Part shown: one piece after another, positions 49,246-62,978 of the stretch
How positions within the stretch are numbered: position 1 is the first letter of the stretch
Layout: the number at the start of each line of letters is the position of its first letter
NCBI GenBank assembly: GCA_022841375.1
Contig: JALHRQ010000003.1
Coordinates: 228,692 to 292,691 of the forward strand
Length of the DNA: 64,000 nucleotides
Direction: 5' to 3'
Source: Burkholderiales bacterium
GTDB taxonomy: Bacteria; Pseudomonadota; Gammaproteobacteria; Burkholderiales; SG8-41
The notes under the pieces: model-generated
Told to the model about the DNA's origin: nothing
The model's database searches: none
What the model saw: the letters and a program-made list of their open reading frames with translations, nothing else
Translations under genes and position numbers: made by a program

Positions 49246-50040
49246 TCAGGAACGGCAGCTGTGGTGGCTGACCAGTTCTTTCAGGTTGTCCAGGCTGAGG
49301 ATGCGCAGGTGCTTGTTCTGCACTGCAATCAGCCCTTGCGCCTGGAAGTGCGACAGCGTGCGGCTGACGGTTTCCAGTTTCAAACCCAGATAACTGCCGA
49401 TTTCCTCGCGCGTCATGCGCAGATGAAACTCAGTGGGCGAGTAGCCGCGCGCGGCAAAACGCTGGGACAGGTTGAGCAGGAAAGCGGCGAGACGCTCCTC
49501 CGCGCGCATGCTGCCCAACAACAGCATGACTCCGTAGTCACGGGCGATTTCGCGGCTCATGATGCGGTGAAAGTGCTGCTGCAACGAAGGAATGTTGCGG
49601 GACAGCCCTTCAAGATCCTTCAGCGGGATTTCGCAGACTTCGCTATCCTCCAGCGCCACCGCATCGCACAAATGCTGATTGGTGCCGATTGCGTCCAGCC
49701 CCATTAGATCGCCCATCATGTGAAAGCCGGCCACCTGCTCACGGCCATCTTCGTGGAGCACGCAGCTTTTCATGAAACCCGAGCGTATCGCGTAGAGTGA
49801 GTGCAGCGCCACGCCGGACCGGAACAGATAGTCCCCCCGTTTGACGGGGCGCCGGCGGGCGATCAGTTCATCCACGGATTTCAGCTCAATGGCAGACAGA
49901 CCGGCCGGCAGGCAAAGCTCCTGCAGGCTGCAGGTGGAACAGGCGGTTTTGAGCTTGTCGACCTCGACAATGCGCAGGGTTGTGGGCATGCTGGGGTGGG
50001 CGAAACCGTGAAATTGGAAATATTGAATGGAGGGCGACAT
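49246..50040 (-). CDS. fnr: FNR-type oxygen-sensing transcription factor
   Basis: A 264-residue FNR. The 4Fe-4S ligands are all present: Cys34, Cys37 and Cys43 (CSTCSLQELC) and Cys136, the last at the same distance as in E. coli FNR. The cNMP-like roll is followed by a helix-turn-helix with EETVSR-type recognition (LETVSRTLSHF), which reads TTGAT half-sites. ATG 50040 follows GAGGGTAAG; the open frame extends over hemN on the other strand, but that part is not coding. An FNR box 13 bases upstream suggests autoregulation. Confidence 0.96.
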   Translation of the reverse strand: MSPSIQYFQFHGFAHPSMPTTLRIVEVDKLKTACSTCSLQELCLPAGLSAIELKSVDELIARRRPVKRGDYLFRSGVALHSLYAIRSGFMKSCVLHEDGREQVAGFHMMGDLMGLDAIGTNQHLCDAVALEDSEVCEIPLKDLEGLSRNIPSLQQHFHRIMSREIARDYGVMLLLGSMRAEERLAAFLLNLSQRFAARGYSPTEFHLRMTREEIGSYLGLKLETVSRTLSHFQAQGLIAVQNKHLRILSLDNLKELVSHHSCRS

Positions 50041-52930: not shown

Positions 52931-53644
52931 TTAACAACGTACCTGCTGCTTGCAGAATTGCGCCAGGGGGCTGACGGTGATTTTCCCGGCCACGCGTTGT
53001 TGCGCGCGGCCACCGCCGTGCTCCAAGGATAAACGCATTTCATACTTGCTGAAAAAGGTATTGAACATTTCGCCACCGAGCGTGCCGGTGGCGAACAGCG
53101 TGTCGCTGGCGGGGTCATGCTCCAGCAGGATCGCGCACAAGGGTTGCGGCGCCGGCCCCGCCATGACTTTGGCGCCGGCTGCGGGATCGTACTCACTGTG
53201 TTCAGAGCAGCAATGGATCATGTTTGGCTGGGCTGCACGGGCAGTGGACTGGGCGCGATAACTGATGAAGCTGATCTGCCGGGTCGGATAAGTCAGTTGA
53301 TGCGAGCAGATCGCCGAATAAGCGACGATCGCACGTTGGGGGCCGACGCCGCCGGGCCACTGGTAGGCCGCACCTTGCACGGTTTTCAGAGCAACGTTCT
53401 GCGTGGTCGGTTTGCCCAGATTGAGCAGGAAGCAGGGCGTGCTTTCAAAGGGATAATGGAAGACGTAGTTCTCGCCGACGACCAGTTGCGCGGCCCGCAG
53501 CGGCTGACCGGCGCTGTCCGTCAACTGCACTTTTCCATACAGCCGGGGCCTGGCATCAGCCGCGGCAAAAGCATCCTGGCCGAAACTGACGGCAGTGGCG
53601 GCGCAGGATGTGGCGCAGAGGCGGATGAAGTCGCGGCGTTCCAT
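52931..53644 (-). CDS. Tat-exported Rieske-type 2Fe-2S protein
   Basis: A 237-residue protein with a twin-arginine-type leader (ERRDFIRLC, then a hydrophobic stretch) and the Rieske ligand pattern Cys113-x-His115 and Cys146-x2-His149 (CSH ... CSEH). A further Cys at 145 and Cys residues near the C-terminus are unusual. It should be a periplasmic electron carrier. It lies just beyond the terminator that ends the mto operon and is transcribed the same way, so an electron-transfer link to MtoAB is possible but not shown. Confidence 0.82.
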   Translation of the reverse strand: MERRDFIRLCATSCAATAVSFGQDAFAAADARPRLYGKVQLTDSAGQPLRAAQLVVGENYVFHYPFESTPCFLLNLGKPTTQNVALKTVQGAAYQWPGGVGPQRAIVAYSAICSHQLTYPTRQISFISYRAQSTARAAQPNMIHCCSEHSEYDPAAGAKVMAGPAPQPLCAILLEHDPASDTLFATGTLGGEMFNTFFSKYEMRLSLEHGGGRAQQRVAGKITVSPLAQFCKQQVRC

Positions 53645-53740: not shown

Positions 53741-55777
53741 CTATTGCCAACGGTAATAGTAGGATACCCCTACAAAATTGACTTTTTGCACTGGGTCTTG
53801 AAGCATGCGGGTGCCATCGCTGTATGTCCAAGTTGACCAAGTCCAGTCGTTGGTGCTGAAGCGGTCGTAGATATAATCCAGTCGAACCCCAGCATTTTTC
53901 TGCGTTGCAAATTTTGCAAACAGCTGCAAACGGGTCAACTTGGTGGTGACTTCGGGCAGCGAGGCGATGGCGGCGCCGGTGATTGCGCTTTGACCATATT
54001 TGTCGGTGATATCTGAATAGCTGACGTCGCCCCCCATTTCCAGCCAAGCATAAGGTTTGCCACGCAATCCAAGCCCCATGGAATCCCCCGTATTTTGCAG
54101 GGCCGCAGCCCAAAGCTGGCCTCCCGAAGTACGGCTGGACTGGTCTAACTTGGTGTCATTACGTGAAAAGTATGCCGTACCTTGAACCTTGTCGTTAAAG
54201 ATGTAGGAGGCATCAATGGAGTAGTTCTGGGATTCTCCCTTTCTCGGCCCAAGGCCAGATCCGTCGCGATCACCTTCATATTTGTCTTGAGACTGATCCA
54301 GCACGAATTGTAAAGAAAGGGGTTCCGTTGCCTGCCAGTTTGCTGAAAGACGGATCTTGTCGCGATCACGATTGGCCAGGTGGATTGGGGCAACGACATT
54401 GCTCCCCGCGGTTCCATTGTTAAGTGTCGTCTGCAGGAATGGCGAACCATCACGCGAGCTGTGAATGTAGCCAATCGCGCCAGTAAGAGTATCGGAGACA
54501 GAACGCCTTAATTCGGCGCGATATGAGGTTTCATCCGTACGGTCGCGGTGACTGACAATGCGAACTTGCGACAGACTGCGTTTTTTCTCTTCGTAATCGA
54601 GGCCGCCGATCAGTCGAAATGCCATTGGCAGCATATAACTGGCTTCGAAATTACCTGTCGTGGTGCGGTTTGACCGTGGTTCGTTGTCGCCGTTAAAGGT
54701 CGATGTTCCAGTTGCAAGTGTGCTGTAACGCAGGACTGGAGTCTTGTCGTCACGGTCGTCGTAGCGAAGGTTGCCCCGCAATGTCAACTTGGGCATCGGC
54801 CGCGCGGTAATTCCCATCTGCACCAGTGTAGTGTCTATCCGTCCTTGAAGATTGTTACCGATTCCCGGCGCCATAGGAACATTAATGCCGGTGACAAATG
54901 CATCGTTCTGCAAGGCCTTTCCGTAAGCTACTTTAAAGTTGCCCTGTGTGGTCGGAGTGAAAGTGTAAGCTCCGGATAGAAAGAGTTGGTGCGAATGATT
55001 GTCCGGGGGTAATGCGATGGGGTTGAAGGTCGATAATCCCGCATTACCGCCGCTGAAACTAAGTCCGTTATATGCATTGTTGAACATAGTTCCAAAATAG
55101 CCACCGCTCAACTGTAGGTTTTTACCTGTGTAACCCAGAGTTGCTTCAAGCAGACGGGTGGTGCTATCAATCGGTTCAGGGGTGAATTCGAAGGCGGGTG
55201 TTGTGGTGCCGCGACCCCAGAGCCGCGCCCCTTTCTTTTCCTCGTTGCGAAAATCAACTTTGAAATTCCACACTTCGGAGAAATGTTTGCTAAAGCCCAA
55301 GCCGATACGTTCCCGCTTGGTCTCCAGATCGACGAGAGTTGTTCTCGTGGATACCGCGGGAATCGTCAATACGTTACTGCCAATACCCTGGACTCCGGTA
55401 AACGCCTGATAGGGTTCGGAGCGGGGTATTTGGTCAAATTCAACGTAATAGCCCCAGTTGCCCTGCGCTTCATGCTCGAAGCGCAAGTCTTGATTATCCA
55501 GCCCCAAGTTACGTCCGCGAAGCTTGAGCCAAGTGCCGGTGGCATCGTCGCGTTTCACGATATCGACGCCCAGCAGACCGTAGGCACCCTCTTGATTCAG
55601 GCCATTGTATTGCCCGAATCGACGGTTGTCGTTATCAACATAACCGAGCCCGAATTGGACGCTGCTTGTCGGTTTTGTCAGTTCTGCGGCTTCTTCGTTT
55701 GCGGCGAAGGCACTAAAAGCCGCAAAGGTTGCGGCTGCCACCGCGGTAAGTCTGAAGGAACTGGATTGGGGTTTCAT
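53741..55777 (-). CDS. mtoB: MtrB/PioB-family outer membrane porin of an extracellular electron conduit
   Basis: A 678-residue outer membrane beta-barrel. Signal peptide to about residue 25 (AFA), then SVQFGLGYVDNDNRRFGQYNGL, many alternating strands, and the end VGVSYYYRWQ. Such porins sheathe a decaheme cytochrome (MtrA/MtoA/PioA) across the outer membrane. It lacks the N-terminal CXXC of Shewanella MtrB, as do MtoB/PioB-type proteins. It is 22 bases after the decaheme gene and last in the operon. Confidence 0.93.
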   Translation of the reverse strand: MKPQSSSFRLTAVAAATFAAFSAFAANEEAAELTKPTSSVQFGLGYVDNDNRRFGQYNGLNQEGAYGLLGVDIVKRDDATGTWLKLRGRNLGLDNQDLRFEHEAQGNWGYYVEFDQIPRSEPYQAFTGVQGIGSNVLTIPAVSTRTTLVDLETKRERIGLGFSKHFSEVWNFKVDFRNEEKKGARLWGRGTTTPAFEFTPEPIDSTTRLLEATLGYTGKNLQLSGGYFGTMFNNAYNGLSFSGGNAGLSTFNPIALPPDNHSHQLFLSGAYTFTPTTQGNFKVAYGKALQNDAFVTGINVPMAPGIGNNLQGRIDTTLVQMGITARPMPKLTLRGNLRYDDRDDKTPVLRYSTLATGTSTFNGDNEPRSNRTTTGNFEASYMLPMAFRLIGGLDYEEKKRSLSQVRIVSHRDRTDETSYRAELRRSVSDTLTGAIGYIHSSRDGSPFLQTTLNNGTAGSNVVAPIHLANRDRDKIRLSANWQATEPLSLQFVLDQSQDKYEGDRDGSGLGPRKGESQNYSIDASYIFNDKVQGTAYFSRNDTKLDQSSRTSGGQLWAAALQNTGDSMGLGLRGKPYAWLEMGGDVSYSDITDKYGQSAITGAAIASLPEVTTKLTRLQLFAKFATQKNAGVRLDYIYDRFSTNDWTWSTWTYSDGTRMLQDPVQKVNFVGVSYYYRWQ

Positions 55778-55799
55778 CGTCGTCTCCTGTCAGCGAGCG

Positions 55800-56747
55800 C
55801 TAGCGCCTAAACGTCCGCTCGTTAGATATATTGGCTGGATTATTAGTACCGTGAATCTGGGTATGGCAGTTGAGGCAGCCACGCGCAGCGGCATTGGCAC
55901 TGGTGCTATTTCCGGTTAGTGACCCGAAGTTGCCGCGGTGACTGGTGGGTTCATGGCATTGCTGACACAGGAAGGGAGAGCGTGTTTTCAACAGATTAGG
56001 CGTGGTTGTGCCGTGGGGGTTGTGGCAAATCGAACAGTCTTCCTGAACCGGCTGGTGGGTACGCACAAATGGGCCGCGTTTTTCCATGTGGCAGGTGTAA
56101 CAGGTGTCATTGACATTATCGCGGACCAAGTTCTTCGGGCCTGCCGATCCGTGCGGATTGTGGCAATCCGAGCATGTCATCTTGCCTTCAGGAATCGGGT
56201 GGCGAGAGGGCCGCTGGCTCTGGGCGCGTTGTTCCTTGTGGCAGGTGTAGCAGACCTGGGCCTGGTCGCGCTTGTCACGCACTTTGTCATGCGCAGCGTG
56301 GACTTGGTGGCATGCCACGCAGGTGGTATCCCGGGTGGCATGCAGGCTGGTCTGCCAGTGGGTGCGCTTGCCGCCCTGGTGGCAGGTCAGGCAGGTCTGA
56401 TTCTGTTCCTCGGGCTGGGTACCGCCCTTTTTGTTGAAAGAAATCGTGGGTTTGGGACGTTCGCTGACGCCGGCCGGCCGGTTGATGTGGGTTTCGCTGG
56501 CGCCGTGGCAACTGATGCAGGTGGGCGTGCGCTTGTCGGCAACCGTGCCGTGTTTGGTCTGGCCGATGGCCAGCACCGGATATTCCTCATCGACGCCATG
56601 GCAACGGGTGCAGACGGCGTCGCCTTTAAGAGCCAGATCCTTGCGCGGAGCTTTGGCGGCGTCCTGCGCCAGCGCCGACTGTGCCATGGCAAACAGGCAC
56701 AACGCGGCAGTCACGCTGCGCATCAGTATCAGAAATGTTTTATTCAT
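55800..56747 (-). CDS. mtoA: Periplasmic decaheme cytochrome c, MtrA/MtoA/DmsE family
   Basis: A 315-residue protein with a signal peptide and exactly ten CxxCH heme sites (for example CTRCH, CISCH, CYTCH, CSICH, CQQCH, CLNCH), evenly spread over two pentaheme-like halves. It forms the wire through the porin encoded next. The family works both ways: Fe(III) reduction in Shewanella (MtrA), Fe(II) oxidation in Sideroxydans (MtoA) and Rhodopseudomonas (PioA). No outer-surface MtrC gene is in the window, which favours the Mto/Pio type. Confidence 0.95.
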   Translation of the reverse strand: MNKTFLILMRSVTAALCLFAMAQSALAQDAAKAPRKDLALKGDAVCTRCHGVDEEYPVLAIGQTKHGTVADKRTPTCISCHGASETHINRPAGVSERPKPTISFNKKGGTQPEEQNQTCLTCHQGGKRTHWQTSLHATRDTTCVACHQVHAAHDKVRDKRDQAQVCYTCHKEQRAQSQRPSRHPIPEGKMTCSDCHNPHGSAGPKNLVRDNVNDTCYTCHMEKRGPFVRTHQPVQEDCSICHNPHGTTTPNLLKTRSPFLCQQCHEPTSHRGNFGSLTGNSTSANAAARGCLNCHTQIHGTNNPANISNERTFRR

Positions 56748-56786
56748 CTGCTGTTCTCCCGTGGTTCTATGGTGCAGCTTTTCGCG

Positions 56787-57401
56787 TTATTTCTTCTTTT
56801 CGAGCTTTGCAGCTTTCATTTCCTGCGGCGTAATACCCTCAGGTTCCTTATGCGCGATGCCGAAGTGGCATTCGATACAGGTCATCTTTTCTTTGTCCGC
56901 CTTGGCGTGGCGGTTTCGCGCTTTTTCGGATTGCAGTTCGCTGTTCATGGATTCGCGCTTGTGGCAATTGCGGCACTCGAGCGAGTCGGTTTCGAGCATG
57001 CGATCCCAGACGCGGTGCGCCAGCGGAGCGCGATGCGCTTCAAACTTTTCCTTGGTGTCGATGACGCCGCGGAAATGGCCCCATAACTCCAGGGATGCCC
57101 GCATTTTGCGGGCGATCAGCGGGATCGGCTCGCGCGGTACATGGCAGTCGGAGCAGAGGACATGAACGCCGGTGCGGTTGACGTCGTGGATCGTGCCCTT
57201 GAACTCGGCATAGACGTTGTCTTTCATTTCATGACAACCAATGCAGAATTCCTGGGTGTTGGTATAAGCCATCGCCGCGACACCAACAGTCATCAGTATG
57301 CCGGCGCCGGCCAGCGCGATCACCAACACCCCTGCAGTCAAAGTGACCCGGGAACATGTCCGGCAGCGGTTCTGCAGATTTGTCCACCATTTGGCGAACA
57401 T
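56787..57401 (-). CDS. cymA: NapC/NirT-family tetraheme cytochrome c (CymA-like)
   Basis: A 204-residue inner-membrane quinol/quinone-linked cytochrome: an N-terminal helix (about residues 20-45) and four heme sites CIGCHE, CSDCHV, CRNCHK and CIECHF. It would exchange electrons between the quinone pool and MtoA or the monoheme cytochrome next to it. The Lys-rich tail (KAAKLEKKK) is cytochrome-docking-like. The operon context separates it from NapC: there are no nap genes. Confidence 0.93.
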   Translation of the reverse strand: MFAKWWTNLQNRCRTCSRVTLTAGVLVIALAGAGILMTVGVAAMAYTNTQEFCIGCHEMKDNVYAEFKGTIHDVNRTGVHVLCSDCHVPREPIPLIARKMRASLELWGHFRGVIDTKEKFEAHRAPLAHRVWDRMLETDSLECRNCHKRESMNSELQSEKARNRHAKADKEKMTCIECHFGIAHKEPEGITPQEMKAAKLEKKK

Positions 57402-57433
57402 GTTTTTCTCTCCCCGGGTTTTTGTTGTTGTGG

Positions 57434-57766
57434 TTAGCGGCTGAGGATCCAGTCGACGACGTTGCGGATTTCCTTGGCATCCTTGGATTTCAGCGCATCG
57501 TGGGTTTCTTCAACGCCATCAACCTTGATTTTGGGATTGGTGGTGATCTGTTTGGTGACTTTGTCCACGCCGTCGGACTTGCCCTTGTATTTTGCGGCTG
57601 TTTCCTTGAAGGCGGGGCCGTCTCTTTTCTTGTCGATAGCGTGACATTTCAGGCAGCCGCTTTTTTTGGCCAAGGCTTCCGCAGCGCTTGCATCGACATC
57701 GGCGGCGTGCGCGGCGCCGGCGGAGAGCATCACGCTGGCGGCGAGGAGCAGAATTCGGGTGAACAT
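57434..57766 (-). CDS. mtoD: Monoheme cytochrome c, MtoD-like
   Basis: A 110-residue exported class I cytochrome c: signal peptide to AHA, heme site SGCLKCHAIDKKRDGPAF, and an ending KEIRNVVDWILSR. The small size, Lys-rich surface and position beside cymA/mtoA match MtoD of Sideroxydans, a soluble electron shuttle in Fe(II) oxidation. It is the first gene of the four-gene unit, with 32 bases before cymA. Confidence 0.9.
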   Translation of the reverse strand: MFTRILLLAASVMLSAGAAHAADVDASAAEALAKKSGCLKCHAIDKKRDGPAFKETAAKYKGKSDGVDKVTKQITTNPKIKVDGVEETHDALKSKDAKEIRNVVDWILSR

Positions 57767-57997
57767 TTAGTAGTACTCCGGGTGGTTAAACAAGCAGAAG
57801 CCACAGTTTATACTTGAAGAACCCGCAGCGGTCCCCTTTGAGGCAGGCTGGGAACATAATTGTTTGCAATGAAAAAAGTAACCGTCCGGCGCTGAATCTG
57901 ACTTTATGCTGTTCAGGCACATCCCGGAAGTCATTGTTGTCGCCCATTATCGCAGTTTTGGCTTAATCAGCTTAACAGCCGCAGTTACCCGAATTCA

Positions 57998-58011
57998 TTG
58001 ATATAGATCAA
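57998..58011 (+). promoter_or_regulatory. Perfect FNR box in the mto/dnr gap
   Basis: TTGATATAGATCAA fits the FNR/DNR consensus exactly. It lies 231 bases upstream of mtoD and 154 upstream of the regulator start at 58166. Confidence 0.88.
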
Positions 58012-58091
58012 ACCGCCATGGGCAATGGCGGCGGCCGGTTTGGAATTGAAACGGGCGCTGTTGCGTTTCAAATTGCAGGCCGCACTGGTGT

Positions 58092-58105
58092 TTGATCCTG
58101 GTCAA
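58092..58105 (+). promoter_or_regulatory. Second FNR-type box before the Dnr-like gene
   Basis: TTGATCCTGGTCAA, one mismatch, is centred 67 bases before GTG 58166. A class II position (-41.5) would put transcription start near 58140, leaving a short leader. Confidence 0.8.
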
Positions 58106-58165
58106 GTTGCAGAGTGCGTGCGGGGGGATACTCAAAACCGGATCATTTCCCAGGAGATTCCCCGC

Positions 58166-58861
58166 GTGTGTGCCGCCGCAGTTCAGGTTTTTCAGGCTCT
58201 TTCCTCATCCAGTCTCTTCGCGGGGCTGGAACCCGCCGCTTTTGGACGCCTGGCCGAGGGTGCCGAACTTCGGGATTTTTCCGGCGGCGAGGTGATCTGC
58301 CGTGAGGGCGAGCCCGGCACCGGGCTGCACCTGGTGACCCAGGGCCAGGTCAAATTGCTGCTACAGGCCGGTAATGGGCACGAAAAAGTCTTCGACCTGA
58401 TTGGTCGGGGGGGCTGTTTCGGGGAGCCTTCGCTGTATACCGACCAGCCGCACCTGGTTACCGCGGCGGCGATTGTGCCGACGCAGTTGTTACATGTCCC
58501 GCGCGCCAATCTGCTGTGTGCCTTGCAGGAAGCGCCCGAACTGGCATTGCGGGTGATCAAAGGGCTGGCGTCAAGGATTTACCGCCGTACCCACGACCTT
58601 AAGAGCTATATGTTGATGTCGGGTAAGCAGCGCGTGATCTGCTATCTGCTGCATGAGGTGCCGCTGGAGCAGGATGGGCCGGAGGAAGTTGCGGTCACGC
58701 TGCCGGTGCGCAAGGGCCTTATTGCCTCACGGCTGAACCTGACCCAGGAGCACTTTTCGCGCATCCTGCACGAGCTGGCCGCCACCGCCCTGATCAAGGT
58801 CGAGGGGCAGCGGGTTCATATCCGTGATCTGTCGCGGCTGCGCGCCGCCGCGATGTCGTGA
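58166..58861 (+). CDS. Crp/Fnr-family regulator, Dnr-like
   Basis: A 231-residue regulator with a cNMP-like sensory roll and a helix-turn-helix (SRLNLTQEHFSRILHELA). The E-x2-S-R recognition residues predict binding to TTGAT half-sites. It has no Cys cluster, so it does not sense oxygen as FNR does; Dnr proteins respond to NO through heme. I set the start at GTG 58166, ten bases after AGGAG. This restores the normal length and places an FNR box upstream instead of inside the gene. Probably controls, or is co-regulated with, the divergent mto genes. Confidence 0.88.
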   Translation: MCAAAVQVFQALSSSSLFAGLEPAAFGRLAEGAELRDFSGGEVICREGEPGTGLHLVTQGQVKLLLQAGNGHEKVFDLIGRGGCFGEPSLYTDQPHLVTAAAIVPTQLLHVPRANLLCALQEAPELALRVIKGLASRIYRRTHDLKSYMLMSGKQRVICYLLHEVPLEQDGPEEVAVTLPVRKGLIASRLNLTQEHFSRILHELAATALIKVEGQRVHIRDLSRLRAAAMS

Positions 58862-59038: not shown

Positions 59039-60328
59039 TCACAGAACTGTTTCAACTTTGATGCCAACCAGATTGGCCTTGGGAACTGTATTAAGGGCTC
59101 CAGGGGACTTGATTTGCTGGAACAGCGGCTGGATGGCCAACCACTTCGTGGCTTGAATGCGATAAGTGACTTCAATGGCTGATTCGGAGTCACCCCTGAT
59201 TGATCCTGTGGCGGCTTGGGACGCTTTCCATTTTTCACTGATTCTGCTGCGGGTAAAAGCAATACCAAAAAAATCTTCTTCACGACCGGGGATAAGTCCT
59301 CGTGCACGTGCGCCTAGGCTGGTGACGTGCCGAATTGCGGTTGAATTGCCATCAGTAGCGCTAAAACGGGCGAATGTGGCCAAATCGCCAGTGTTCCAGC
59401 TCAGCATGGTCCGCTCGGCCTGTGCATACCATCCATCACTGACGCGTTGCGCCGGATTGCCGGCTGCATCCACATCAACCAGATCATTCACTTTTGAGGT
59501 GTATCGCCAGTAACCCAAAGCATATTTTTCCAAGCCGGTATTTTCACTGGCCTGACTATCTTTCGGAGAGTCATTGCCGGAACCGTTGGCTCTCGGAGTG
59601 AGACCAACTTCAATGATTTGCATCGTGCCATCGCCATTATTGAATTTAATGTGTGTTCCTTTCGGCTTGTTGGGATCGCCGGGAATGCCGTCGAGGACGG
59701 CCATCATGACGTAGTTTTTTTGATTCTCTGATTGCCATTTGCCGCGAAAGCCGAATGCGGATTGATTAAAAACCGAGGGGCCTCTGGTCAGCGCAAGATC
59801 AGCGGTCGGCCCATAGGGCGGGAGTACGAAAAGTCCTGCGCTTTCAATAACCTGGAATTCGGAGTCGATGGGGTATAGACCCACGAGCAAAGACCATTGT
59901 TTGTTTCCGAACGACTGGTCAACCCATGCATGAAAGATACGATGTGTTGAGACGGCCACTTCGGTATTGGAGACGCCCATGAGACTTCCGACGTAGTCGC
60001 GGTTTACTTTGCCGCCGGTGTCATAGATAAAATTTAAATAGGCGGTTGCATTTTCCCAGCCGACCAGTTTTTCCAGGTCACCTCGCAATTTCACATCAAA
60101 TTGGTTGATGGGGCGTCCACCTTGCCGAATTCCTCCATGAACGTTGCGAAGAATATCCGACTTGAATCCGAGGTCCAGATTGAGCCCTTTTTCGCTCCAA
60201 GTAGAGCGTAATCCACCCCAATCCCCGGTCAACGTTTCTTGGGCGTAGTCGGGAGCATCATCCTCTTGAGCTTGTACGCAGGTGGCCCCAATAAGGCATC
60301 CAATAACAAATAAACATTGTTTGAGCAT
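59039..60328 (-). CDS. OprB-like carbohydrate-selective porin
   Basis: A 429-residue outer membrane protein with signal peptide (to VQAQ) and the OprB opening ETLTGDWGGLRSTWSEKGLNLDLGF. Later segments HAWVDQSFGNKQWSLLVGLYPIDSEF and AFGFRGKW are typical. OprB proteins take up sugars. The end (VGIKVETVL) lacks the usual terminal Phe, while a stray Phe-containing barrel end (TWRFK) is left just beyond its stop. It may therefore have a recombined C-terminus. Confidence 0.88.
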   Translation of the reverse strand: MLKQCLFVIGCLIGATCVQAQEDDAPDYAQETLTGDWGGLRSTWSEKGLNLDLGFKSDILRNVHGGIRQGGRPINQFDVKLRGDLEKLVGWENATAYLNFIYDTGGKVNRDYVGSLMGVSNTEVAVSTHRIFHAWVDQSFGNKQWSLLVGLYPIDSEFQVIESAGLFVLPPYGPTADLALTRGPSVFNQSAFGFRGKWQSENQKNYVMMAVLDGIPGDPNKPKGTHIKFNNGDGTMQIIEVGLTPRANGSGNDSPKDSQASENTGLEKYALGYWRYTSKVNDLVDVDAAGNPAQRVSDGWYAQAERTMLSWNTGDLATFARFSATDGNSTAIRHVTSLGARARGLIPGREEDFFGIAFTRSRISEKWKASQAATGSIRGDSESAIEVTYRIQATKWLAIQPLFQQIKSPGALNTVPKANLVGIKVETVL

Positions 60329-60633
60329 TTTTTCTCAATACATTTTTGATTTTGGAAATAAAATCTTTATACACCTGATTCCGTGTCGACTATTAATCCT
60401 TAAATGAATTTGTTTTCTTCGGGGGCATCGGATTTTTTGCTTTGGTCCAAGCCACGGCAGGTTGCTGTTGTCAATAAGAACTAAAAAATAAAGTTCAACT
60501 TGAAGCGAGTTTTATAAACTTCGTTTTGCCCGGAAGAATCAATGCCGGATTTCTGAAGTTAAAGGTGCGCATTTATTTGAATTTCCAAGAAAAATCTGAA
60601 TTTTGAACTTTGGAAATGTATATAATCGGTGCC
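60329..60633. other. AT-rich gap between the OprB-like porin and czcI
   Basis: About 305 bases of low GC between divergent genes, where both promoters should lie. A TATAAT at 60621-60626 is too close to czcI ATG 60634 to be its -10 unless translation starts elsewhere. No gene, terminator or FNR box is seen. Confidence 0.5.
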
Positions 60634-60984
60634 ATGTTGCAAAAATTAACGGTAACTTTGCTGATACTTGTCATGGGAATCCATTCCATGGCAGTTACCT
60701 TGTTTGCAACTTCGTCAAACGGTTTTGCTGATCTGACTCATACGGTAATGCATTGGGATCAGGAAGCGCACCATCACCATGATTCCGGCGAATACCATCC
60801 CGAAGATTCCGACGAATCCGCGCAACACCTGATGGCTGATTATTCCAATGCCGCGGCAGTTCTATCGGTTGCCGGTTCGTATTATTTCCGGCCTGGTGTA
60901 ATGTCATCAGCAGCGTTGCCGGAGCATCCCGGCCCCAATCCTTTTCTCGAAGGCCTGCTCAGGCCGCCGCGCCCGATCGTCTGA
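60634..60984 (+). CDS. czcI: CzcI-like His-rich exported protein
   Basis: A 116-residue protein with a hydrophobic leader (LTVTLLILVMGIHSMAVTLF) and a metal-binding stretch (HWDQEAHHHHDSGEYH). It resembles the small CzcI proteins that precede czcCBA and tune heavy-metal resistance. ATG 60634 gives the best signal peptide; a TTG at 60610 in frame is possible. It is 141 bases upstream of the efflux genes. Confidence 0.7.
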   Translation: MLQKLTVTLLILVMGIHSMAVTLFATSSNGFADLTHTVMHWDQEAHHHHDSGEYHPEDSDESAQHLMADYSNAAAVLSVAGSYYFRPGVMSSAALPEHPGPNPFLEGLLRPPRPIV

Positions 60985-60999
60985 CGCGCCGGGTCATAT

Positions 61000-61016
61000 C
61001 ACGTCCCTTGGACGTG
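61000..61016 (+). promoter_or_regulatory. Perfect 7-base hairpin between czcI and czcC
   Basis: CACGTCC-CTT-GGACGTG. There is no T run after it, so it is not a simple terminator. It may be an operator or an mRNA-stability element. Confidence 0.35.
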
Positions 61017-61125
61017 CATGACCGATGTCACCATGGATTTTGCAATCCGCCGCGATTGTCGCCTCTGGTAACGATTGCGTGCGTTGCATGCCGTTGTGCA
61101 ATCACACATTCGGTTAGGAAATATC

Positions 61126-62379
61126 GTGAATACTGTAATCAGGCTGGCCTGCTATGCAGTCGCAGGCAGCATATGGAGTGTGTCCGCCTGGGCTCAACTG
61201 TCGGCATCGCCCAAGGCGGCTCCCGACCTTCTGCAGGCGGCACCGGCCACCCTTGCCGCCGCCGTCGATGCAGCCTGGCAGCGCGCTGTTGCCGCTCGGG
61301 AAGTCCGGGGCCAGCAGCAGCGAGCTGAGGCAGATCGTGTGGCAGCCTCGAGCCTCTGGGCTGCGCCACCTACGCTGGAACTTAATCATCGCAGCGACCG
61401 CTGGCAGACCGATGCCGGGAGGCGTGAAACGGAAATCGGACTGGCCTGGCCGCTGTGGTTGCCAGGGCAGCGGGATGCTCGTGGTGCTCTTGCCGAGTCT
61501 GGCGTAAGCCTGGCTGATCAGGCGGAAGGCACAGCGCGTCTGCGCATTGCCGGTGAAGTGCGTGAGGCTGCTTGGGCGCTGGTTGGGCAACAATCGGAAT
61601 TGGCGCTGGCAGAGGTTGGTGTACGGTCACTCACCTCGCTGGCTGACGATGTTGATCGGCGAGTCAATGCCGGCGATCTCGCGCGAGCAGATGCTCTGGC
61701 AGCGCGTGCTGAATTGTCGGGTGCGACTGCCCAGCTGATCGACGCGCGCCATCGCGTGCAGGCTGCGCGCAGCCGCTGGACGCTTTTGACCGGGCATCAG
61801 GGCGTACCACGGGCTGAGGAGCCGGTAATGGCTTCGCACCCAGCGGTCACGGAACATCCGGAAATGCGCTACGCCGCAACGACCGCCGAACACGTCCGTA
61901 AACGGGCTGCACTGGTTAGAACGTCGCGCAGCGAACCACCTGAGATCATCGTCGGCATCCGTCAGGACATTCCCGGTCGCATCGACTCGTCGCAGAACAG
62001 TCTCTCGGTTGGAGTTCGTCTGCCTTTAGGCACGGCGGATCGCAATCGGCCCCTGCAGGCGGCGGCACAAGCGGAACTGGATATCGCGGAGGCTGCAGAA
62101 CTCCGGGTGCGCGATCGCTTGCAGGCCGAACGAGCCACCGCCAACGCGGCTCTTGAAGCCAGTGCGCAGCAAGTGCAAGCCGAAAAGAACCGTGCGAGTT
62201 TGCTCCGAGAGCGCGCCACTCTCCTCGAGAAGTCTTTTCGGGCCGGAGAAAGCGCTTTGCCGGAATTGCTCCGCACCATAGCCGCTGCGGCACAAGCCGA
62301 GGCGGCACTGGTTCGGCAGCAGGCTGCGCTCGGTCTGGCCCTGGCTCGACTCCACCAAACTTTGGGATTACTGCCATGA
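61126..62379 (+). CDS. czcC: TolC-family outer membrane efflux protein, CzcC-like
   Basis: A 417-residue outer membrane factor with a signal peptide (cleavage after AWA) and the OEP repeats: long helices such as LAEVGVRSLTSLADDVDRRVNAGDLARADALAAR and the mirror segment RERATLLEKSFRAGESALPELLRT. It is the exit duct of a tripartite RND pump. The start is GTG 61126 after TAGGAA. It overlaps the next gene by four bases. Confidence 0.92.
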   Translation: MNTVIRLACYAVAGSIWSVSAWAQLSASPKAAPDLLQAAPATLAAAVDAAWQRAVAAREVRGQQQRAEADRVAASSLWAAPPTLELNHRSDRWQTDAGRRETEIGLAWPLWLPGQRDARGALAESGVSLADQAEGTARLRIAGEVREAAWALVGQQSELALAEVGVRSLTSLADDVDRRVNAGDLARADALAARAELSGATAQLIDARHRVQAARSRWTLLTGHQGVPRAEEPVMASHPAVTEHPEMRYAATTAEHVRKRAALVRTSRSEPPEIIVGIRQDIPGRIDSSQNSLSVGVRLPLGTADRNRPLQAAAQAELDIAEAAELRVRDRLQAERATANAALEASAQQVQAEKNRASLLRERATLLEKSFRAGESALPELLRTIAAAAQAEAALVRQQAALGLALARLHQTLGLLP

Positions 62380-62978
62380 ATGTCAGCACACCAACCCGAT
62401 CCAAGCTCATTGCGTCTATTTTCGGCCTGTTGTTGGCTGCAACCCTGTCCATTGTTTATGCCTCGCCAGGTGCACATGGTCCTGATGGCGAGCATCTGGA
62501 CGCCAAGTCCGGTGCGGCCGCAAGTTCAAGTCAACCGCGGATGGAAGCGAATTCCGATATGTTCGAATTGGTCGCCACCCTTTATGAAGGTGAGCTGTCA
62601 ATCCTGATTGACCGTTACCAGACCAACGAGCCGTTGTTGAACGCAGAACTGGAGGTGGAAAGCGGCGGCATCAAAGCGAAAGCCAAGTTCCATGCCGACC
62701 ACGGAGATTACGCTATCGATGATCAGGCATTGCTGAAATTGTTGTTGACCCCGGGCGAACACGCACTCGTATTCACCATCGTTGCCGGCGAGGAAACCGA
62801 TCTATTGGACGGCAAACTGGTGAAAACCGCATTGACGGCGGACGGCCATGGCCGCGATGACCATGGCCACACAGGCGAGATCTCCGCATGGACGGGCCTC
62901 GCAGTCTTGGGCCTCGGTGTTGTTGTATTTCTGATCCGTCGCCGGAATCGCGGTCTCACGGCGAGCAAAGGAGCTTGA
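62376..62978 (+). CDS. Periplasmic accessory protein of the metal RND pump
   Basis: A 200-residue protein: signal peptide (to VYA), a His-containing mature start SPGAHGPDGEHLD, a beta-rich domain (about residues 60-150, MFELVATLYEGELSILIDRY ... GEHALVFTIVAGEE), a His/Asp-rich HGRDDHGHTGE linker, and a C-terminal helix. In some pumps this domain is fused to the adaptor; here it is a separate gene between czcC and czcB. Function is inferred only from context. Confidence 0.72.
   Translation: MNVSTPTRSKLIASIFGLLLAATLSIVYASPGAHGPDGEHLDAKSGAAASSSQPRMEANSDMFELVATLYEGELSILIDRYQTNEPLLNAELEVESGGIKAKAKFHADHGDYAIDDQALLKLLLTPGEHALVFTIVAGEETDLLDGKLVKTALTADGHGRDDHGHTGEISAWTGLAVLGLGVVVFLIRRRNRGLTASKGA

Follow-up and report, generated by a model that had tools for sequence, protein, structure and literature searches.

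The window analyzed here, 64,000 nucleotides of a Burkholderiales bacterium genome (assembly GCA_022841375.1, contig JALHRQ010000003.1, positions 228,692 to 292,691), contains an operon mtoD-cymA-mtoA-mtoB and, divergent from it, a gene for a Dnr-type regulator of the Crp/Fnr family. The gap between them holds two FNR boxes, and the arrangement is kept in related species. The operon probably encodes a Mto-type trans-outer-membrane conduit under low-oxygen-type control, with operon and regulator sharing the control region.

Operon, regulator and shared control region

The operon is transcribed from the minus strand in the order mtoD, cymA, mtoA, mtoB, with gaps of 32, 39, and 22 bp. The gene names are supported alike by family models, by the number of heme motifs and by the solved MtrAB complex 6r2q (Table 1), in accordance with a preliminary description of the region as one four-gene unit of decaheme cytochrome, porin, CymA-like and MtoD-like cytochromes. 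The TIGR03509 score of MtoB is 412.5 bits against a cut-off of 240, and the position of mtoD within the unit recurs in other loci.

The best solved match of the regulator is DNR of Pseudomonas aeruginosa (3dkw, E 7.5e-29). An N-terminal Fe-S cysteine cluster is absent, the only cysteines being at positions 2, 45, 84, 118, and 159 (numbered from the GTG start), so that domains, strand and cysteine positions agree with the earlier view of a cluster-free Crp/Fnr protein divergent from the conduit. A cAMP-type Crp was rejected: the phosphate-binding region of CRP has an Arg-Ser/Thr-Ala pattern, which is lacking in that of the window regulator, FGEPSLYTDQPHLVTAAA. Translation more likely starts at GTG 58166 than at ATG 58025, as indicated by AGGAG at 58152–58156 and by the orthologue in the related genome G026, whose open frame has no start codon before the GTG matching 58166. 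The choice of start decides the location of the boxes. Both are present as previously reported, and GTG 58166 leaves both in the intergenic gap; with ATG 58025 box 2 would lie inside the gene.

Two boxes in a gap of this size are far beyond chance. In 5000 dinucleotide shuffles of its 399 bp the mean was 0.0018 boxes, at least one box appeared in nine shuffles and two boxes in none. The whole genome contains 46 TTGAYN4RTCAA sites versus three for the reversed pattern, and the window seven sites with at most one mismatch versus 1.44 expected. Perfect or near-perfect boxes are also located before ccoN (43543) and between a cysteine-cluster fnr gene and hemN (50053); the motif therefore looks like the normal low-oxygen operator of this genome. 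A predicted −10 hexamer, GATACT, begins 22 bp after box 2, which places box 2 at −41.5 of the predicted regulator promoter. Both boxes and GATACT are kept in three congeners, the mean identity of the gap being 74%.

On the opposite side, box 1 lies about 238 bp from mtoD in the window, 236 bp in G026 and 218 bp in G027; in G055, G051, and G034 the distance to the first gene is about 80–90 bp. If box 1 acts in class II position, mto transcription would start near 57963, and the leader would be roughly 197 nt long. Its conservation among congeners is poor, with gaps in G027. The window has no Rfam match at the gathering score and no tRNAs.

Table 1. Features of the mto region (window coordinates).
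Feature	Position	Strand	Evidence or remark
mtoB, MtrB/PioB-family outer-membrane porin, 678 aa, cysteine-free	53741–55777	minus	PF11854 E 4.5e-152; TIGR03509
mtoA, decaheme periplasmic cytochrome, 315 aa, 10 CXXCH	55800–56747	minus	TIGR03508 285.8 bits (cut-off 192.2); 6r2q_A E 8.1e-66
cymA-like NapC/NirT tetraheme quinol dehydrogenase, 204 aa, four CXXCH	56787–57401	minus	PF03264 E 5e-61
mtoD-like monoheme cytochrome c, 110 aa, one CXXCH	57434–57766	minus	PF00034 E 8.4e-06, 27.5 bits (cut-off 21.3)
Intergenic gap between operon and regulator, 399 bp, containing both FNR boxes	57767–58165		Box scan, shuffles
FNR box 1, TTGATATAGATCAA, perfect, mto-proximal	57998–58011		Pattern scan
FNR box 2, TTGATCCTGGTCAA, one mismatch, regulator-proximal, centre 67.5 bp before GTG 58166	58092–58105		Pattern scan
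Predicted −10 hexamer GATACT of the regulator	58128–58133	plus	Identical in window, G026, and G027
Dnr-type Crp/Fnr regulator, E-x-x-S-R recognition helix	58166–58861 (probable GTG start; longest frame from ATG 58025)	plus	PF00027 and PF13545
Fnr/Anr-type regulator, cysteine cluster CSTCSLQELC, alternative candidate for binding at the boxes	49246–50010 (approximate start)	minus	Family scan
Possible fifth gene, Rieske-type protein, Tat-like start (RRDF), C-x-H/C-x-x-H motif	52931–53644	minus	TIGR03171 E 1.5e-31, under its cut-off

Regulators and boxes at related conduits

MtoB-like matches were found in 23 of the 74 genomes of the family, and Dnr-type regulators lie within 1 kb of mto-like operons in eight family genomes. 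Close orthologues of the window regulator (87 and 81% identity) adjoin mto in G026 and G027. G055 carries a 46%-identical regulator divergent from mtoD-cymA at a contig end, with two boxes between them and mtoA-mtoB on another contig. More Dnr-type genes occur near mto-like heads in G034, G063, G011, and G051, and 3.3 kb away in G054. In G034 two tandem regulators of this type (L032:1931-3472) are divergent from mtoD-cymA-mtoA-mtoB. Record CAMAYE010000013.1 (L081) also contains an mto locus, from a close relative of the window; the record is named Bordetella parapertussis, an organism name that looks wrong.

The distance from the box centre to the regulator start, taken from coordinates, is 67.5 bp in the window, 68.5 bp in both G026 and G027, 70.5 bp in G055 and 71.5 bp in G051; a cross-genus alignment of the regulator promoters failed to line up the last two. 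Since G055 and G051 represent another genus, this class II spacing is kept in five loci of two genera. The conduit of G051 is a more distant MtoA-like one (34%).

Boxes were counted upstream of 92 mto/PCC heads, two of the 94 loci given being dropped for too short an upstream region. The 480 bp before these heads contain 38 boxes in 43.8 kb (0.87/kb), compared with 57 in the other 1272 kb of these loci (0.045/kb), and no copy of the reversed pattern. When only intergenic DNA is considered, there are 31 boxes in 29.0 kb (1.07/kb) before cytochrome-type heads, recognized by heme number rather than homology, versus 19 in 94.7 kb (0.20/kb) in other gaps, about a fivefold difference. At least one box is present before 28 of the 92 heads, comprising all ten that have a Crp/Fnr gene at most 1.5 kb away and 18 of the other 82.

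Phylogenetic analysis included 42 of 49 listed Crp/Fnr proteins, seven under 90 bits, all from Nitrosomonas, being left out. Twenty-three regulators encoded away from mto form a supported clade (98/85), and all 12 mto-linked rows, that of the window included, fall outside it. The regulators of the window, G026, and G027 join L241 and the regulators of G011 and G055 in a weakly supported group (87/86). The E-x-x-S-R helix, the specificity of which fits TTGAT half-sites, is present in 42/42 proteins of the tree. One column separates the groups: opposite DNR position 139, a histidine is kept in 22 of the 23 Dnr-clade rows and in none of the 12 mto-linked rows. Five of ten scanned neighbor genes, nine of which lie beside unlinked Dnr regulators, are nitronate-monooxygenase-like.

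The domains and the E-x-x-S-R helix, both found in DNR, justify the earlier label Dnr-like; sensing of nitric oxide (NO) cannot be carried over with it, because DNR histidines 14, 15, 167, and 187, the ones studied as haem ligands, are all replaced in the window protein (by S, S, D or L, depending on the aligner, and R). Beside a cytochrome conduit, its gene also differs from DNR in setting. His14 and His15 are likewise missing in all other Dnr rows of the family, and His187 in most. These losses outside the mto-linked regulators disfavor copying the DNR haem model to the family as a whole.

Electron flow and control of the conduit

In the proposed mechanism, MtoA with the MtoB barrel would carry electrons across the outer membrane, MtoD would shuttle them through the periplasm and CymA would exchange them with the quinone pool. 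The window contains genes for a NarK-like transporter, NarGHI, NnrS, a histidine kinase/response regulator pair and a cbb3 oxidase, so the nitrate reductase and cbb3 genes first noted there are indeed present. Elsewhere the window's own genome encodes another COX1-family oxidase and two nearly identical 764-aa quinol NO reductases (L330:2168-4462 and L331:2666-4960, on C7 and C32); the one tested scores 1431 bits to a solved NO reductase, in agreement with Pfam, and NCBIfam gave no match at E 1e-20. NirS is without a match in the same genome, the one NirK match reaches 51.7 bits where the cut-off is 296.3, and the search for a second Dnr-type gene gave none at E 1e-25. G026 has a NirS match and G055 both NirS and NirK. 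No RuBisCO match was found in the own genome or in the six congeners searched; matches occur in G054 and also in G055, a genome with the window's layout. The missing RuBisCO match makes an iron oxidizer with Calvin-Benson-Bassham autotrophy unlikely here. Auxiliary use of Fe(II) or another outside donor, or outward electron flow, is possible.

Inward electron flow is more likely. The opposite direction, in which the conduit would reduce Fe(III), an electrode or humic substances as a low-oxygen electron sink, is the less probable one, though it would fit the NapC/NirT-type quinol dehydrogenase of the unit, the RuBisCO result and published trees, where, in the available part of the source, MtoAB and PioAB form no function-specific clade (PMC8805035). 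Against outward flow stand the lack of an MtrC/OmcA match in the own genome, the nitrate reductase and cbb3 oxidase that could serve as electron sinks, and the likeness to the electron-uptake cluster of Sideroxydans lithotrophicus ES-1. As described in the accessible text, that cluster (mtoD, mtoA, mtoB, and cymA/imoA) unites the same four protein kinds, but cymA, judged by locus numbers, stands at its other end, whereas here it lies between mtoD and mtoA (PMC4412085). The window adds the divergent Crp/Fnr gene and the FNR boxes, in a comparison for which ES-1 is known from its description rather than its sequence. In the accessible part of a 2026 paper on ES-1 Mto, "FNR" and "regulator" have no occurrences (PMC13390432), and "FNR" is likewise absent from the searched portion of a second ES-1 paper.

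For the control region it is proposed that the Dnr-type regulator, alone or with an Fe-S-cluster Fnr/Anr, occupies box 2 at −41.5 in the regulator promoter, for autoactivation or an Anr-to-Dnr relay, and that either or both also bind box 1, which would lie at about −41.5 relative to the predicted mto start. Binding at these class II boxes would lead to expression of the conduit at low oxygen, and the neighboring regulator may sense a second signal that acts as a further gate. The presence of a low-oxygen-type regulator beside the conduit, in an arrangement kept in related species, suggests that the inducing signal is a shortage of oxygen or a nitrogen oxide, and not iron itself.

A simpler arrangement, in which the boxes are ordinary Fnr/Anr sites and the neighboring regulator is another target with no part in mto control, has perhaps one chance in several: a cysteine-cluster fnr gene lies about 8 kb away, the ccoN and fnr-hemN boxes belong to the same window, and 18 heads with no Crp/Fnr gene within 1.5 kb still carry a box, but the neighborhood of regulator and mto recurs in several genera, all ten such heads have boxes, and the mto-linked regulators stand outside the clade of other Dnr genes. 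It is more doubtful that Dnr-type regulators were captured by conduits with a change of signal, now an iron-nitrogen product (e.g., NO from Fe(II) and nitrite) or the redox state of the conduit, giving a feedback switch-on. The nitrate reductase, NnrS, and two quinol NO reductases, together with the results for NirS, NirK, and a second Dnr-type gene in the own genome, fit capture in part, and the sensory half differs, the His of DNR 139 being missing in 12/12 mto-linked rows; G026 and G055, with the same layout, speak against it by their NirS matches.

Control of such a conduit by a Crp/Fnr protein has a precedent in pioABC of Rhodopseudomonas palustris TIE-1. According to the available part of the report, transcription starts 177 bp before the ATG, FixK boxes are centered at −44.5 and −137.5, and expression in photoferrotrophic growth is much lower without fixK (PMC3050613). 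As far as that text goes, pioABC thus resembles the window in an MtrAB-family conduit under a Crp/Fnr regulator, a class II position and a long leader; the box spacing, 94 bp in the window and 93 bp in pioABC, is a likeness of layout and not of descent (PMC3050613). FixK is, in the accessible description, a global regulator of the FixLJ cascade, whereas the Dnr-type gene of the window adjoins the conduit and shares its control region. The conduit itself is known, as is Crp/Fnr control of pioABC, and the new part is the linked Dnr-type regulator; the literature searched, mostly outside subscription journals, yielded no description of mto linked to a regulator of Dnr or Fnr type.

Several observations weigh against control of the conduit by the linked regulator and its boxes. 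The mto promoter has only a weak −10 at class II distance, and a promoter scan of the gap gave one weak match, away from the predicted place. No box precedes 64 of the 92 heads, and FNR-type control is therefore not a property of the conduit as such; boxes within 450 bp are missing in 20/20 Nitrosomonas and 15/15 Aromatoleum/Azoarcus heads, two Nitrosomonas loci having one box some 630 bp before mtoA. The counted loci are related and not independent. The mto-linked regulators are not one clade, L090 and L120 carrying remote types, and the unlinked L241, like L038 at 3.3 kb from mto, also falls outside the Dnr clade. The boxes may be read mainly by the cysteine-cluster Fnr. For pioABC, the accessible text describes binding of purified FixK to the proximal box alone, and loss of fixK raised expression under the tested conditions other than photoferrotrophic growth (PMC3050613).

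The switching of Mto conduits has been little studied, as far as the literature search showed. A recurring neighbor regulator with class II boxes predicts induction of extracellular electron transfer by low oxygen or nitrogen oxides in these betaproteobacteria, in parallel with FixK control of pioABC. In field studies, mto transcripts may accordingly mean oxygen limitation rather than iron oxidation.

Conduit lineage and neighboring genes

An MtoA tree of 61 rows was built from 26 of 80 named loci (the best 80 of 233) picked by architecture, together with unnamed ones; 27 named loci had been asked for, and L090 gave no row. Surrounded by betaproteobacterial rows, MtoA of the window clusters with the congeneric proteins (100/99), and a 46-row set that includes it is split at 100/99 from ten rows labeled mtrCAB and five labeled dmsEFAB. 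The mtrCAB rows set apart from the window are gammaproteobacterial and MtrC-linked; the label denotes a neighboring 10-heme ORF, checked by family model in one of the ten (L317), and one row, with such a neighbor, is a Photobacterium record from a plasmid search. Among the dmsEFAB rows, a checked DmsA-like neighbor lies on the same strand in three and on the other strand in one; the neighbor of L313_3769 is truncated and unchecked. Of these four DmsA-like proteins, two stay below their cut-off. The label "alpha?" in the tree is a guess. Placement within the mto group is poorly resolved, and rows with the order mtoD-cymA-mtoA-mtoB are not one clade. Two of the 46 rows (L133 and L158) have downstream 8-heme ORFs of 663 and 691 aa, which may be surface cytochromes; membership of the Mto branch therefore indicates lineage without implying that a surface cytochrome is absent.

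The porin was found in 32 of 37 loci of Mto or other beta type and in nine of ten mtrCAB loci. A CXXC motif is present in 9/9 MtrC-linked and 5/5 Dms-type porins and in 0/32 of the Mto or other beta type (the window not counted). The motif separates the sets just as the MtoA tree does, with no exception among the porins found, and marks lineage rather than electron direction. Searches with TIGR03507 and PF22113 gave no MtrC/OmcA match in the 99%-complete own genome, where the control genomes also lacked a known MtrC and the search may be blunt; TIGR03507 recognizes an MtrC by hmmscan, and the genome search with PF22113 was silent on MtoA although hmmscan matched it. The absence of an MtrC gene and of the porin CXXC was thus borne out, with no positive-control MtrC genome in the search. 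Like the Shewanella-type MtrCAB system (MtrAB of 6r2q), the window has a decaheme cytochrome adjoining an MtrB-family porin; an MtrCAB assignment is nevertheless not supported, given the missing MtrC match and CXXC and the separate branch of the MtoA/MtrA tree.

The porin-decaheme pair and the position of MtoA outside both the MtrC-linked and the DmsE branches uphold assignment to the Mto type; the refuting result named in the earlier description, placement within the DmsE clade, did not arise in the tree of MtoA. The further designation as an Fe(II)-oxidizing type does not follow, because MtoAB and PioAB group with MtrAB of complete MtrCAB modules in the available part of published trees (PMC8805035), the CXXC is a mark of lineage and RuBisCO gave no match in the genome. 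A conduit of DmsEF type, serving an extracellular DMSO-like reductase and suggested by the NCBIfam label "DmsE family" of MtoA, is very improbable and was rejected, as no DmsA-type gene was seen beside the unit (genes at 49–60 kb scanned) and the identified molybdoenzyme of the window is NarG, 20 kb away, supported branches part MtoA from the five DmsE-type rows, and the window porin lacks the CXXC found in 5/5 Dms-type porins. Four Nitrosomonas records carry two MtoAB-like loci each (L097/L101, L104/L116, L094/L103, and L110/L117), with no mtoD/cymA match nearby.

The Rieske-type gene begins 96 bp after the end of mtoB, and its product, which has no match in a Pfam scan, may be a fifth electron carrier of the mto unit. 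In G026 and G001, too, a gene of this kind comes after an mtoB-like one, the porin of G001 being very different. Beside mto operons of three family genomes lie cytochromes with three or two copies of a heme stretch (L034:11935-12879, L037:3783-4760, and L036:8245-8925), possibly further periplasmic carriers. Downstream of the regulator, at 59039–62978 of the window, there are an OprB-type porin gene and genes that look efflux-like by eye only.

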